A stretch of 64,000 bases of DNA, taken from NCBI GenBank assembly GCA_009746045.1, contig RPFO01000072.1, forward strand, positions 6,041,933 through 6,105,932. The letters are read 5' to 3'. Made by a program: the position numbers and the translations under genes. The notes under the pieces were generated by a model. It made no database searches. It saw only the letters and a list, made by a program, of their open reading frames with translations, and was not told the DNA's origin. Below, one piece after another: positions 51,752-63,415 of this stretch. The DNA comes from Mesostigma viride (Eukaryota; Streptophyta; Mesostigmatophyceae; Mesostigmatales; Mesostigmataceae). Within the stretch, counting starts at the first letter, position 1; every line of letters starts with the position of its first letter.

Positions 51752-51798
51752 TCAAGCATGCCCTTGCGCTACTTTGGGCATCATGGGCTCACTCAGGT
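51752..51798 (-). CDS. Possible last exon of the beta-clamp gene
   Basis: An acceptor TTCAATAG| at 51799 joins in frame to give DLSEPMMPKVAQ and a TGA at 51752-51754. The 'dplsP' character fits the position, but the usual final beta strand ending in 'MP' is absent. It could be a truncated C-terminus or a wrong exon. Confidence 0.4.
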
Positions 51799-60700: not shown

Positions 60701-63415
60701 TACAATGATGAAATGGTGAGATACTCTACCAGCCATACAATGAAGACATGGTGAGATACTCTACCAGCCATACAATGATGAAATTGTAAGATACTCTACC
60801 AGCCATACAATGATGAAATTGTGAGATACTCTACCAGCCATACAATGATGAAATTGTGAGATACTCTACCAGCCATACAATGATGAAATTGTGAGATACT
60901 CTACCAGCCATACAATGATGAAATTGTGAGATACTCTACCAGCCATACAATGATGAAATTGTGAGATACTCTACCAGCCATACAATGATGAAATTGTAAG
61001 ATACTCTACCAGCCATACAATGATGAAATTGTAAGATACTCTACCAGCCATACAATGATGAAATTGTGAGATACTCTACCAGCCATACAATGATGAAATT
61101 GTGAGATACTCTACCAGCCATACAATGATGAAATTGTGAGATACTCTACCAGCCATACAATGATAAAATTGTAAGATACTCTACCAGCCATACAATGATG
61201 AAATTGTAAGATACTCTACCAGCCATACAATGATGAAATTGTGAGATACTCTACCAGCCATACAATGATAAAATTGTGAGATACTCTACCAGCCATACAA
61301 TGATGAAATTGTAAGATACTCTACCAGCCATACAATGATAAAATTGTGAGATACTCTACCAGCCATACAATGATGAAATTGTGAGATACTCTACCAGCCA
61401 TACAATGATGAAATTGTAAGATACTCTACCAGCCATACAATGATGAAATTGTAAGATACTCTACCAGCCATACAATGATGAAATTGTAAGATACTCTACC
61501 AGCCATACAATGATGAAATTGTGAGATACTCTACCAGCCATACAATGATAAAATTGTGAGATACTCTACCAGCCATACAATGATAAAATTGTGAGATACT
61601 CTACCAGCCATACAATGATGAAATTGTGAGATACTCTACCAGCCATACAATGATGAAATTGTGAGATACTCTACCAGCCATACAATGATGAAATTGTAAG
61701 ATACTCTACCAGCCATACAATGATGAAATTGTAAGATACTCTACCAGCCATACAATGATGAAATTGTGAGATACTCTACCAGCCATACAATGATGAAATT
61801 GTAAGATACTCTACCAGCCATACAATGATGAAATTGTAAGATACTCTACCAGCCATACAATGATAAAATTGTGAGATACTCTACCAGCCATACAATGATG
61901 AAATTGTGAGATACTCTACCAGCCATACAATGATGAAATTGTGAGATACTCTACCAGCCATACAATGATAAAATTGTGAGATACTCTACCAGCCATACAA
62001 TGATGAAATTGTAAGATACTCTACCAGCCATACAATGATGAAATTGTGAGATACTCTACCAGCCATACAATGATGAAATTGTAAGATACTCTACCAGCCA
62101 TACAATGATGAAATTGTAAGATACTCTACCAGCCATACAATGATGAAATTGTGAGATACTCTACCAGCCATACAATGATGAAATTGTGAGATACTCTACC
62201 AGCCATACAATGATGAAATTGTAAGATACTCTACCAGCCATACAATGATGAAATTGTAAGATACTCTACCAGCCATACAATGATGAAATTGTGAGATACT
62301 CTACCAGCCATACAATGATGAAATTGTAAGATACTCTACCAGCCATACAATGATAAAATTGTAAGATACTCTACCAGCCATACAATGATGAAATTGTAAG
62401 ATACTCTACCAGCCATACAATGATGAAATTGTAAGATACTCTACCAGCCATACAATGAAGAAATTGTAAGATACTCTACCAGCCATACAATGATGAAATG
62501 GTGAGGCTTTTATTTATTTCATTTTGCAGGGGCCACCCCATACTTGCGTGGCCCGGATTTCAACAGAAACGTGAGATGCCCGGATCCGGTCCGCGATGGG
62601 ACTGTGAGATGCCAGGCTGTTGGCTCACCGCACACCCACAACAGCCAGACTTCCACAACCGCGATCCGATGCACTGCCAAACACGTTCAAACTGAAACTC
62701 AAAACGATGTGGCATCCTGTCCTTTGACGCCGCGTCGCCATCCTGTCCTAATCGCCCATCTATCGCCATCCTGTCCTAATCGCCCATCTATCGCCATCCT
62801 GTCCTAATCGCCCATCTATCGCCATCCTGTCCTAATCGCCCATCTATCGCCACCCTGTCCTAATCGCCCATCTATCGCCATCCTGTCCTAATCGCCCATC
62901 TATCGCCACCCTGTCCTAATCGCCCATCTATCGCCACCCTGTCCTAATCGCCCATCTATCGCCACCCTGTCCTAATCGCCCATCTATCGCCATCCTGTCG
63001 CCATCCTACACCCACCCGATATCCCTCCCTCCATGCTTCACAGCTCTCCAGCGGCCAACGGGACTGCGTGACTAGTGACTTATTTAATTTATTATATCCA
63101 TTAATTAATTATGTCCATTCCTGTTGCTACCCTTCTCACCATCCCTATTTCCCTCAAAAAAGGGTCCACCAAAGGACGCACCTGCATCCTCGCGGTCGCC
63201 ACCATCGGCTTCACCAAACTCAACAGGGGCGCCGCAGGGACGGTGGCCACCCCAAAGGAAGACACGGAAGCCACAGGAAACGACGTCAGCATCGACACTT
63301 GGCCATCGCCTGCGCGAATAATGACCCGCGGCCTGTCCTCGGACGAAGCAGCACCGATGCCATCGATCCCCATGGCAGGGCCCGCTGCCACTTCGCCCGC
63401 TGGGCTGGCCGACAT
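51752..63415 (-). CDS. Bacterial-type DNA polymerase III beta sliding clamp (DnaN-like), intron-rich nuclear gene
   Basis: The beta clamp is a ring-shaped dimer that tethers replicative polymerase to DNA in bacteria. Exons right to left: 63182-63415, 59212-59331, 58225-58404, about 56828-57101, 55142-55297, 54406-54573, 51863-51950, and a tentative last exon 51752-51798. Introns with firm ends are phase 0 except the last. In the order of E. coli DnaN: VATVPAAPLLSLVK (domain I); SRFTLRGEPAGNYPDLPSW; LLWALQRTRHAAAKERDGRP and ARFVATDSSRLATVTVPV (domain II); NYVLSMRFVQEVTKVLGD; NVAANNYPDIDGLL; LEASLKQLLPFVDGG (domain III); KMSFNPYFFLDVLTNATG, matching the bacterial 'F(N)..Y..DVL'. The first ~30-40 residues and any targeting peptide lie upstream, and the usual C-terminal 'Y.(V/L)MP' is not seen. 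Family strongly supported; completeness unknown. Confidence 0.87.
51863..51950 (-). CDS. Beta-clamp gene, domain III exon 2
   Basis: Frame-consistent with the previous exon if the acceptor is GTGGAG|GAGAGC (start 51950); the stronger-looking CCCAG| at 51956 would break frame. Encodes WKMSFNPYFFLDVLTNATG, aligned with E. coli 'EIGFNVSYVLDVLNALK'. Donor GACAG|GTGAGC, phase 1. Confidence 0.88.
52640..53950. other. GC-rich insert of unknown nature inside a clamp intron
   Basis: Distinct in composition from the AT-richer intron around it, with many short inverted segments (for example gccggcctttttgtgccggc near 52758). Minus 52740-53192 is open for 150 codons but matches no family I know. It may be a mobile-element insertion; no ends were defined. 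Confidence 0.4.
54140..54290. repeat. Threefold 48-bp direct repeat
   Basis: 'gaaatgtatcatacgctact' plus 'atgcggatagttgttcatga' repeats three times with few differences, next to a copy of the exon donor edge at about 54288. Confidence 0.9.
54406..54573 (-). CDS. Beta-clamp gene, domain III exon 1
   Basis: Fifty-six codons. Acceptor CCCCCAG|TTCCAC, donor GGGATG|GTGAGT, phase 0. Encodes GGLEASLKQLLPFVDGGG and VLSLAARSDLIGEG. Copies of its 3' edge lie downstream (about 54288-54310, 52587-52614, 52477-52507) and a copy of its 5' edge lies upstream (about 54636-54672). Confidence 0.9.
54770..55110. repeat. G/GA-rich and (GT)n/(GA)n simple repeats
   Basis: A G-rich tract lies near 54780-54840, (TG)n near 55010-55035 and (GA)n near 55040-55100, all inside the clamp intron between the exons at 55142 and 54573. 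Confidence 0.85.
55142..55297 (-). CDS. Beta-clamp gene, exon with the NYPD motif
   Basis: Fifty-two codons. Acceptor GCGCCAG|CACCTT, donor TGTGAC|GTGAGT, phase 0. Encodes VMVACGSTMVTSVNVAANNY then PDIDGLLQ, the counterpart of bacterial 'F.SKLVDGRFPDYRRVLP' at the start of domain III. Confidence 0.88.
56440..56560. repeat. Poly-G/GGGGAA tract
   Basis: Long runs of G broken by AA; a likely site of sequencing or assembly error. Confidence 0.9.
56828..57101 (-). CDS. Beta-clamp gene, domain II/III linker exon (3' limit uncertain)
   Basis: Acceptor CGCCAG|CATGAC, phase 0. Encodes SNYVLSMRFVQEVTKVLGD (bacterial 'VIVPRKGVIELMRML' position), a charged KEIQIEEKERERELQ helix and an Ala/Pro run. After the long C-run at about 56887-56900 the frame with similarity seems to change (VTLYLRPERV is in another frame), so a short intron or an indel in the homopolymer is likely. 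A donor GG|GTGAGTG lies at 56827. Confidence 0.68.
57880..57960. repeat. 16-bp minisatellite, five units
   Basis: 'attgccggttgtcaca' repeated in tandem, embedded among the copies of the domain II donor edge. Confidence 0.92.
58225..58404 (-). CDS. Beta-clamp gene, domain II exon
   Basis: Sixty codons. Acceptor CTGCAG|GTCCGC, donor GTGTCG|GTGAGC, phase 0 both ends. Encodes WPELLWALQRTRHAA and ARFVATDSSRLATVTVPV, matching the bacterial 'VATDGHRLA' motif. Four degraded copies of its donor edge follow in the intron and one copy of its acceptor edge precedes it. Confidence 0.92.
58685..58875. repeat. (ACGC)n microsatellite with ACAC borders
   Basis: About 180 bp of ACGC tetranucleotides. Cys/Val/Arg-rich and Thr/His/Ala/Arg-rich frames across it are artefacts. 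Confidence 0.97.
59212..59331 (-). CDS. Beta-clamp gene, exon spanning the domain I/II junction
   Basis: Forty codons. Acceptor TTGGCAG|GTGACG, donor GGGAG|GTGCGG, phase 0 both ends. Encodes GGGSRFTLRGEPAGNYPDLP, comparable with E. coli 'SRFSLSTLPAADFPNLDDW'. Confidence 0.9.
60076..62505. repeat. 35-bp minisatellite, about 69 units
   Basis: The unit contains 'gagatactctaccagccata'. Most units are identical except for G or A at one position (GTGAG or GTAAG) and gatg or gata at the start. A rarer 'gaagacatggtgag' form occurs at about 60391 and 60741, exactly ten units apart, which suggests block duplication. The array lies in the 3.8-kb intron between the first two visible clamp exons. There are no unique spacers, so it is not a CRISPR array. 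Confidence 0.97.
62735..62998. repeat. 28-bp minisatellite, about nine units
   Basis: Units built from 'cctaatcgcccatctatcgc' plus 'catcctgt' or 'caccctgt', in the same intron as the 35-bp array. Confidence 0.95.
63182..63415 (-). CDS. Beta-clamp gene, first visible exon
   Basis: Seventy-eight codons if begun at ATG 63415. An acceptor TTTCTAG| sits at 63421, so this may be an internal exon with the true start beyond the window. Encodes AGDGQVSMLTSFPVASVSSF and GVATVPAAPLLSLVKP (domain I). Donor ATGCAG|GTGCGT, phase 0. Confidence 0.75.

Follow-up and report, generated by a model that had tools for sequence, protein, structure and literature searches.

An intron-split nuclear gene of Mesostigma viride for a protein homologous to the beta sliding clamp of bacteria

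Introduction

Does the nuclear genome of a green-lineage alga encode the sliding clamp of bacterial DNA replication and, if so, what might it serve? The question is raised by a 64,000-nucleotide stretch of Mesostigma viride DNA (hereafter the window; bases 6,041,933-6,105,932 of contig C113, which is 6,166,696 bases long), in which an original prediction, made from the letters of the sequence, had recognised a split gene resembling bacterial dnaN. Here, we examine this gene, its relatives and its potential partners in the same assembly (439.9 Mb in 2243 contigs).

Accounts of organelle replication usually name a family A polymerase and, with it, a helicase-primase of phage type, in place of the family C polymerase of bacteria (PMC4166229, PMC8227023, PMC6523293, PMC7050145). 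POP, the polymerase of plant and algal organelles, is reported to be highly processive and, to the knowledge of the authors of an enzyme review, no accessory protein of it has been identified (PMC4166229); the word "clamp" does not occur in that review. Counterparts of the bacterial replisome could not be identified for the Andalucia mitochondrion (PMC7050145), and the main text of a beta-clamp review (PMC11139829) is without "plastid", "chloroplast" or "mitochondri". The apicoplast polymerase has no known processivity factor, and it has been proposed that one awaits discovery (PMC9631997). Among the matches listed in the open-licence literature, no paper described a eukaryotic beta clamp, in agreement with the statement in the original prediction that no characterised example is known; unannotated relatives in eukaryotic genomes are possible. 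The beta clamp is an established protein family; a nuclear eukaryotic member, possibly provided with an organelle leader, would be new.

A split gene with the three domains of DnaN

A single-copy, intact-looking, intron-split nuclear gene at this locus codes for a protein homologous to DnaN, the beta sliding clamp of bacteria. The gene lies on the minus strand, and the portion within the window (exons 2 to 9, here also A to H) spans 63420 to 50708. All four peptides quoted in the original prediction were found on that strand, namely RFVATDSSRLA (58246-58278), SRFTLRGEPAGNYPDLPSW (59227-59283), NYPDIDGLL (55157-55183) and SFNPYFFLDVL (51876-51908). The prediction of seven exons in order and in frame was borne out by GT/AG ends and a single frame, but the list was incomplete, as an eighth exon (50814-50708) had been missed.

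Domain I is encoded by exon 2 (A, 63182..63420), which reads RVIIRAGDGQVSML and, further on, TVPAAPLL and which has the acceptor TTTTCTAG, the donor GTGCGT and an end in phase 0, and by exon 3 (B, 59212..59331), which contains SRFTLRGEPAGNYPDLPSW. Domain II is encoded by exon 4 (C, 58225..58404), which contains FVATDSSRLA, by exon 5 (D, 56970..57101), which reads SNYVLSMRFVQEVTKVLGD and whose end, at the donor GTTAAG, is uncertain, and, for its last part, by exon 6 (E, 55142..55297), which contains TSVNVAANNYPDIDGLL. Exon 7 (F, 54406..54573) opens domain III; like exons D and E, it is in phase 0 at both ends. SFNPYFFLDVL lies in exon 8 (G, 51863..51947), which ends in phase 1 and whose start is uncertain, with further AGs close by. 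Exon 9 (H, 50708..50814), found by reading the three minus-strand frames downstream, supplies the C-terminus FVDFGLVQPTGPAILRDEGDRQSMFLIMPMGISS with the MPM motif and the stop codon TGA; it joins exon G in phase 1 because its acceptor needs one base and the donor of G leaves exactly one.

All eight exons are open in a single joining frame through to the stop. The seven introns between them are GT-AG throughout and measure, in gene order, 3850, 807, 1123, 1672, 568, 2458 and 1048 bases; the first six are in phase 0 and the last, between exons G and H, is in phase 1. GC content amounts to 0.63 in the exons (0.775 at third codon positions) and to 0.42-0.58 in the introns. Genome-wide, the 394-residue spliced protein gave eight matches, all at this locus, in a search that scored the best candidates only.

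Two local irregularities were observed near these exons. Downstream of exon D (minus strand, 56816-56960), the frame enters an Ala/Pro-rich stretch with a run of C, and a longer alternative exon D is possible. Besides, about 110 bases upstream of exon C (minus strand, 58500-58530), the acceptor of this exon and its first codons recur in a short near-copy (CTCCAGGTCCGCCTGCCCTGA) that contains a stop and may be a partial duplication in tandem.

The profile check proposed along with the original prediction, run on the joined exons, found each of the three clamp domains, and in the right order (PF00712, PF02767, PF02768), only PF00712 lying above its cut-off (E 8e-9; 36.1 bits, cut-off 24.4). The NCBIfam dnaN model TIGR00663 matched the joined protein with 99.2 bits (E=2.3e-28) over profile positions 41-365 of 367, inclusion of exon H having lifted the score from 82.6 bits (E 2.5e-23). 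Among the PDB chains matching at E values up to 1, 38 of 39 were bacterial beta clamps (best E 4e-10). At the limits applied, the only families that the protein matched in Pfam and NCBIfam were those of DnaN. In eukaryotic nuclei, the same kind of job is done by another sliding clamp, PCNA. Judged from these matches, the homology of the predicted protein to DnaN is beyond doubt, yet it is very diverged and not filed as an equivalog.

With bacterial beta clamps (PF00712, PF02767, PF02768; TIGR00663), the predicted protein shares the order of the three domains, collinearity over nearly the full length and a series of motifs (FVATDxxRLA, SRFxL, YPD, FN..F/YxLDVL and the C-terminal MPM). It differs in being nuclear-encoded and intron-split, in a leader of about 88 residues on a tentative exon 1 (see below), in inserts before NYPD and in domain III, and in its low identity (20-26%). 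Near-constant positions were retained preferentially: 31 are kept of the 70 aligned columns whose constancy reaches 95% or more among 83 bacterial rows (the seven rows from plasmids or phages were left out), as compared with 69 identities to Escherichia coli DnaN over 322 aligned positions.

To remove the effect of exon choice by reader or analyst, we also scanned the window unspliced, comparing its 2169 open reading frames (ORFs) of at least 18 codons with a profile built on DnaNs of bacteria, plasmids and phages (90 in all: 12 named ones plus 78 of 80 genome loci, L067 and L077 being left out). The four top ranks went to exons C (23.9 bits; profile 127-190), B (18.4 bits; 89-137), H (14.8 bits; 342-370) and A (12.4 bits; 41-88); the four share the minus strand and follow the order of the profile. 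The next ORF reached 6.3 bits, eight windows shuffled in two-base blocks gave at most 6.2 and the reversed window gave 2.5. On the other hand, exons D (5.3 bits; profile 196-228), E (1.9 bits, aligned to the wrong profile stretch) and G (1.7 bits) stood at noise level, exon F was absent from the list obtained from the 2169 ORFs, and two unrelated ORFs were listed as well (6.3 and 2.3 bits). With their unspliced signal at noise or absent, exons D, E, F and G were placed by phase, order and spliced alignment.

A host gene beside a bacterial genome

The original prediction had held that introns speak against bacterial contamination, and several lines of evidence now agree that the gene is eukaryotic: its introns, its position on a 6.17 Mb contig and its GC content. 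The assembly does contain a bacterial genome. A separate, intact and intronless dnaN adjoins dnaA on contig C2011 (1158814-1159938; L093) and matches TIGR00663 with 267 bits; it was the sole intact dnaN reported elsewhere by the genome search with this model. At 33.5% GC, against 53.4% in the window, it belongs to a bacterium that was co-assembled with the host and whose dnaN differs from the window protein.

Contaminating DNA, or a recent transfer from this bacterium, might be invoked given the presence of that second genome with its own dnaA-dnaN, and a clade of the window DnaN with the C2011 DnaN was not rejected in our trees (p 0.27). However, the nearest tree rows lie 8.7 and 11.1 changes per site away from the window protein and the C2011 bacterium is not among the five nearest, which, next to the introns, the contig size and the difference in GC, makes either account extremely improbable. 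Contamination is excluded because the contig, in a genome of 440 Mb, is itself 6.17 Mb long and the bacterium carries a different dnaN of its own; the seven GT-AG introns and the GC content are in line with this. Recent transfer from the C2011 bacterium would need a close bacterial match; none was found, leaving that scenario without support.

As to the bacterium itself, its contig reaches past 1.39 Mb, and its genome has, besides dnaA-dnaN, its own dnaX and polA. By eye only, it looks like a Rickettsiales-type endosymbiont.

Divergence and phylogenetic placement

Where did the gene come from? Relatives were collected from genome contigs (at least 592 stretches, 332 relatives, best 80 kept) with search motifs drawn from proteobacterial sequences, and the resulting set is without chromosomal cyanobacterial DnaN. 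By their titles, the best 80 of the 332 are largely alphaproteobacterial (not counted), a predominance that is no evidence of origin since the motifs themselves came from proteobacteria. Within this biased set, the best BLAST matches of the window protein were alphaproteobacterial (best 9e-19) and the best cyanobacterial plasmid DnaN followed at 3e-5, while a Bacillota plasmid DnaN scored as high as many alphaproteobacteria.

Two trees were computed, one of 44 rows and one of 38 rows after removal of L007, L010, L089, L091, L112 and L117 (L067 was taken in by another rule and L118 was left out). The end branch leading to the window protein measures 6.6 changes per site in the larger tree and 8.9 in the smaller, and the protein falls outside the Pseudomonadota group that includes the C2011 bacterium, with a Shimodaira-Hasegawa-like approximate likelihood ratio test (SH-aLRT) support of 100 in the first tree and 90/92 in the second. 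The original prediction had looked to a DnaN tree for a cyanobacterial or alphaproteobacterial origin; neither was singled out, as grouping with cyanobacterial-plasmid DnaNs (p 0.47) and with alphaproteobacteria (p 0.28) was not rejected, nor was grouping with the C2011 symbiont (p 0.27). The clamp gene is old, or fast-evolving, or both, and the trees point to no one donor.

In a protein database whose eukaryotic content is uncertain, and with a search that needs shared five-residue words and restricts length, no relative of a 359-residue version of the protein was found (7997 candidates scored, E up to 0.001), nor, at E up to 10, any of its residues 92-182 (266 candidates), and exon C alone drew no candidate. 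Viral contigs yielded none either, the patterns used being poor and one of them spanning an exon junction. The 15 and 21 phage and plasmid DnaN records that were compared showed 22-33% identity.

A candidate first exon and leader

The profile matches begin at position 41 and leave out the N-terminal 40 residues of domain I. A profile search of the 20 kb past the window gave nothing convincing for them. By eye, we picked an ORF at 70608-70189 (extended coordinates, minus strand) that reads NQLSFEIQAGEFKQELEKISRVAGSSGKAGMPSIL, resembling the start of E. coli DnaN, MKFTVEREHLLKPLQQVSGPLGGRPTLPIL. The tentative exon 1 placed in it by eye and phase (70590-70215; L094:6215-6590), about 6.8 kb beyond the window, opens with the ATG at 70590, which follows an in-frame stop, and closes at the donor GTAAGC at 70215 in phase 1, which is also the phase of the exon A acceptor, TTTTCTAG. 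The full model would then comprise nine exons and 520 codons plus stop. On balance, we lean towards assigning this exon to the clamp gene.

Its first 88 residues are basic and poor in acids (eight Arg and four Lys against two Asp and one Glu), contain 38% Ser, Thr and Ala, compared with 25% in the rest, and are without a strongly hydrophobic stretch. This basic, Ser/Ala-rich, acid-poor candidate leader tentatively resembles organelle targeting signals. The organelle targeting envisaged in the original prediction has gained circumstantial support from a leader beyond the window, on a tentative exon.

The presumed first intron, between this exon and exon A, holds a repeat of about 1 kb of the CTGGTGCTG type followed by long minisatellite arrays (window 63775-64000 and L094 1-5500).

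Clamp loader exons and a possible organellar role

A sliding clamp needs a loader, and matches to one were found on another contig. Three separate stretches of C1846 (597396-602168), each in another short ORF, matched the DnaX model TIGR02397 with 84.1, 61.1 and 33.2 bits; these ORFs (L120, L121, L123) carry the Walker A sequence GPRGTGK, a DEAH and an SRC motif. In a scan against NCBIfam, DNA polymerase III gamma/tau was the best match of each (87.8 bits, NF004046; 65.1 and 38.8 bits, NF011510) and accounted for all 25 matches shown for the first two ORFs and for 23 of 25 for the third, the other two being delta prime. Exons of a putative split host gene for the gamma/tau clamp loader, dnaX, thus accompany the split dnaN in this genome. 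This lends some substance to the bacterial-like replication apparatus that had been anticipated for an organelle, but does so circumstantially and with scores under cut-off.

STICHEL-type plant proteins contain a DnaX-like domain and act in leaf-hair branching; like the putative Mesostigma loader, they are nuclear DnaX-like ATPases of the green lineage, and we know of no clamp partner for them. In Rhodomonas salina, a dnaX described as firmicute-derived is encoded by the plastid (PMC2412073). Both algae would have kept a bacterial clamp-loader gene, the difference being that the Rhodomonas gene lies in the plastid genome and codes for a loader, not a clamp, whereas in Mesostigma clamp and loader exons lie on large host contigs.

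Taken together, we consider it probable, by a modest measure, that the gene encodes an organellar beta clamp. Made in the cytosol, the protein would be carried into an organelle, most likely the plastid, by the candidate leader, which would then be cut off. Its three domains would fold, and a head-to-tail dimeric ring would close on organelle DNA after having been opened and loaded by the DnaX-type ATPase from the split exons. There, the ring might tether a partner through its hydrophobic cleft, either an organelle polymerase of family A, such as those of the POP/PolI type, or an enzyme of repair. Import, the dimeric ring, loading and tethering are drawn from established knowledge of clamps. 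Whether nuclear dnaN and nuclear dnaX form a bacterial clamp/loader module that serves plastid or mitochondrial DNA, for a replisome or for repair, we regard as evenly balanced.

Several observations weigh against an organellar clamp. The joined protein misses the equivalog cut-off of TIGR00663 (99.2 against 137.65 bits) and is therefore taken for a diverged homologue rather than an equivalog, and PF02767 (25.0 bits, E 2.4e-5) and PF02768 (26.6 bits, E 5.5e-6) both remain below their cut-off of 27. Of 23 positions which we took to form the partner-peptide cleft, 10 are identical to E. coli (L155, V170, T172, R176, L177, P242, N320, M362, P363 and M364); several others are conservative, but G174 and H175 are replaced by S and R246 by G, and positions 365 and 366 are not aligned. 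All three loader matches lie below the TIGR02397 cut-off, and this model also matches four archaeal controls, without passing the cut-off; for these two reasons the C1846 ORFs were scanned against NCBIfam. As for candidate exon 1, it was not listed by an N-terminal DnaN profile (90 sequences, 38 or 44 columns), it is left unaligned by the full DnaN profile, which aligns only from position 41, and it does not raise the PF00712 score (34.9 bits with it, 36.1 without).

Weak cleft conservation and sub-cut-off scores might also be expected of a non-expressed or decaying copy that has lost its function, and the near-copy of the exon C acceptor at about 58516 does carry a stop. Yet none of the eight exons in the window is interrupted in the joining frame, their ends are GT-AG, and the rate of retention at near-constant columns is about double that of an average position (31/70 vs 69/322). 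A neutral copy this diverged would not have stayed open, which renders decay very unlikely.

An organellar clamp would not have to be a processivity factor. It might instead be a platform for repair or recombination with MutS/MutL-like, PolI-like or ligase partners. The high processivity reported for POP, with no accessory protein identified (PMC4166229), suggests that replication may need no clamp; besides, DNA_pol_A domains occur at three split host loci (C1446, C2133 and C1106; 13 matches), in addition to the bacterium's own, and the extreme divergence of the protein (end branches of 6.6 and 8.9 changes per site) would fit a changed partner. Against this, split loader exons are present, as in replication; they do not decide the matter, however, since repair clamps need loading too. 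We rate such a repair or recombination role as rather unlikely.

A somewhat fainter prospect, and an unlikely one, is that the same protein is imported into mitochondria, or into both organelles, instead of the plastid. An Arg-rich, acid-poor leader could serve either organelle, and both the best BLAST matches (9e-19, against 3e-5 for a cyanobacterial plasmid DnaN) and a grouping that was not rejected (p 0.28) are alphaproteobacterial. However, the set was built with proteobacterial motifs and without chromosomal cyanobacterial DnaN, a Bacillota plasmid DnaN equals many alphaproteobacteria, and the trees keep the window protein outside Pseudomonadota (SH-aLRT 100; 90/92), with p 0.47 for the cyanobacterial-plasmid grouping. 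The Andalucia study likewise reports no bacterial-replisome counterparts for a mitochondrion (PMC7050145).

If the organellar reading is true, a eukaryote would have preserved or reacquired part of the machinery that gives bacteria their processivity, and a beta clamp would still serve the replisome or the repair system of one organelle or more, in contrast to the usual clampless POP/PolI picture. This makes several questions testable: whether an organelle polymerase binds the clamp, whether clamp-binding drugs act in the organelle and when the module was lost elsewhere.

Neighbouring features

The rest of the window contains retroelement-like sequences. Ten window ORFs were compared with Pfam and two of them matched, both with reverse transcriptase or integrase domains: the ORF at 28974-32525 (minus strand) with RVT_2 and an integrase core, both under cut-off, and the ORF at 19028-20431 (plus strand) with RVT_1 just over cut-off. 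By eye, further ORFs of similar appearance are seen at 44-49 kb and in L095. Beyond the window, on the plus strand at 72.2-76.9 kb of the extended coordinates (L094, at its end, and L095), two RING-like stretches rich in cysteine (CPQCRNAV... and CRECARQI...CPLC) were observed in ORFs; judged by eye only, these ORFs likely represent a host gene lying head to head with the clamp gene.

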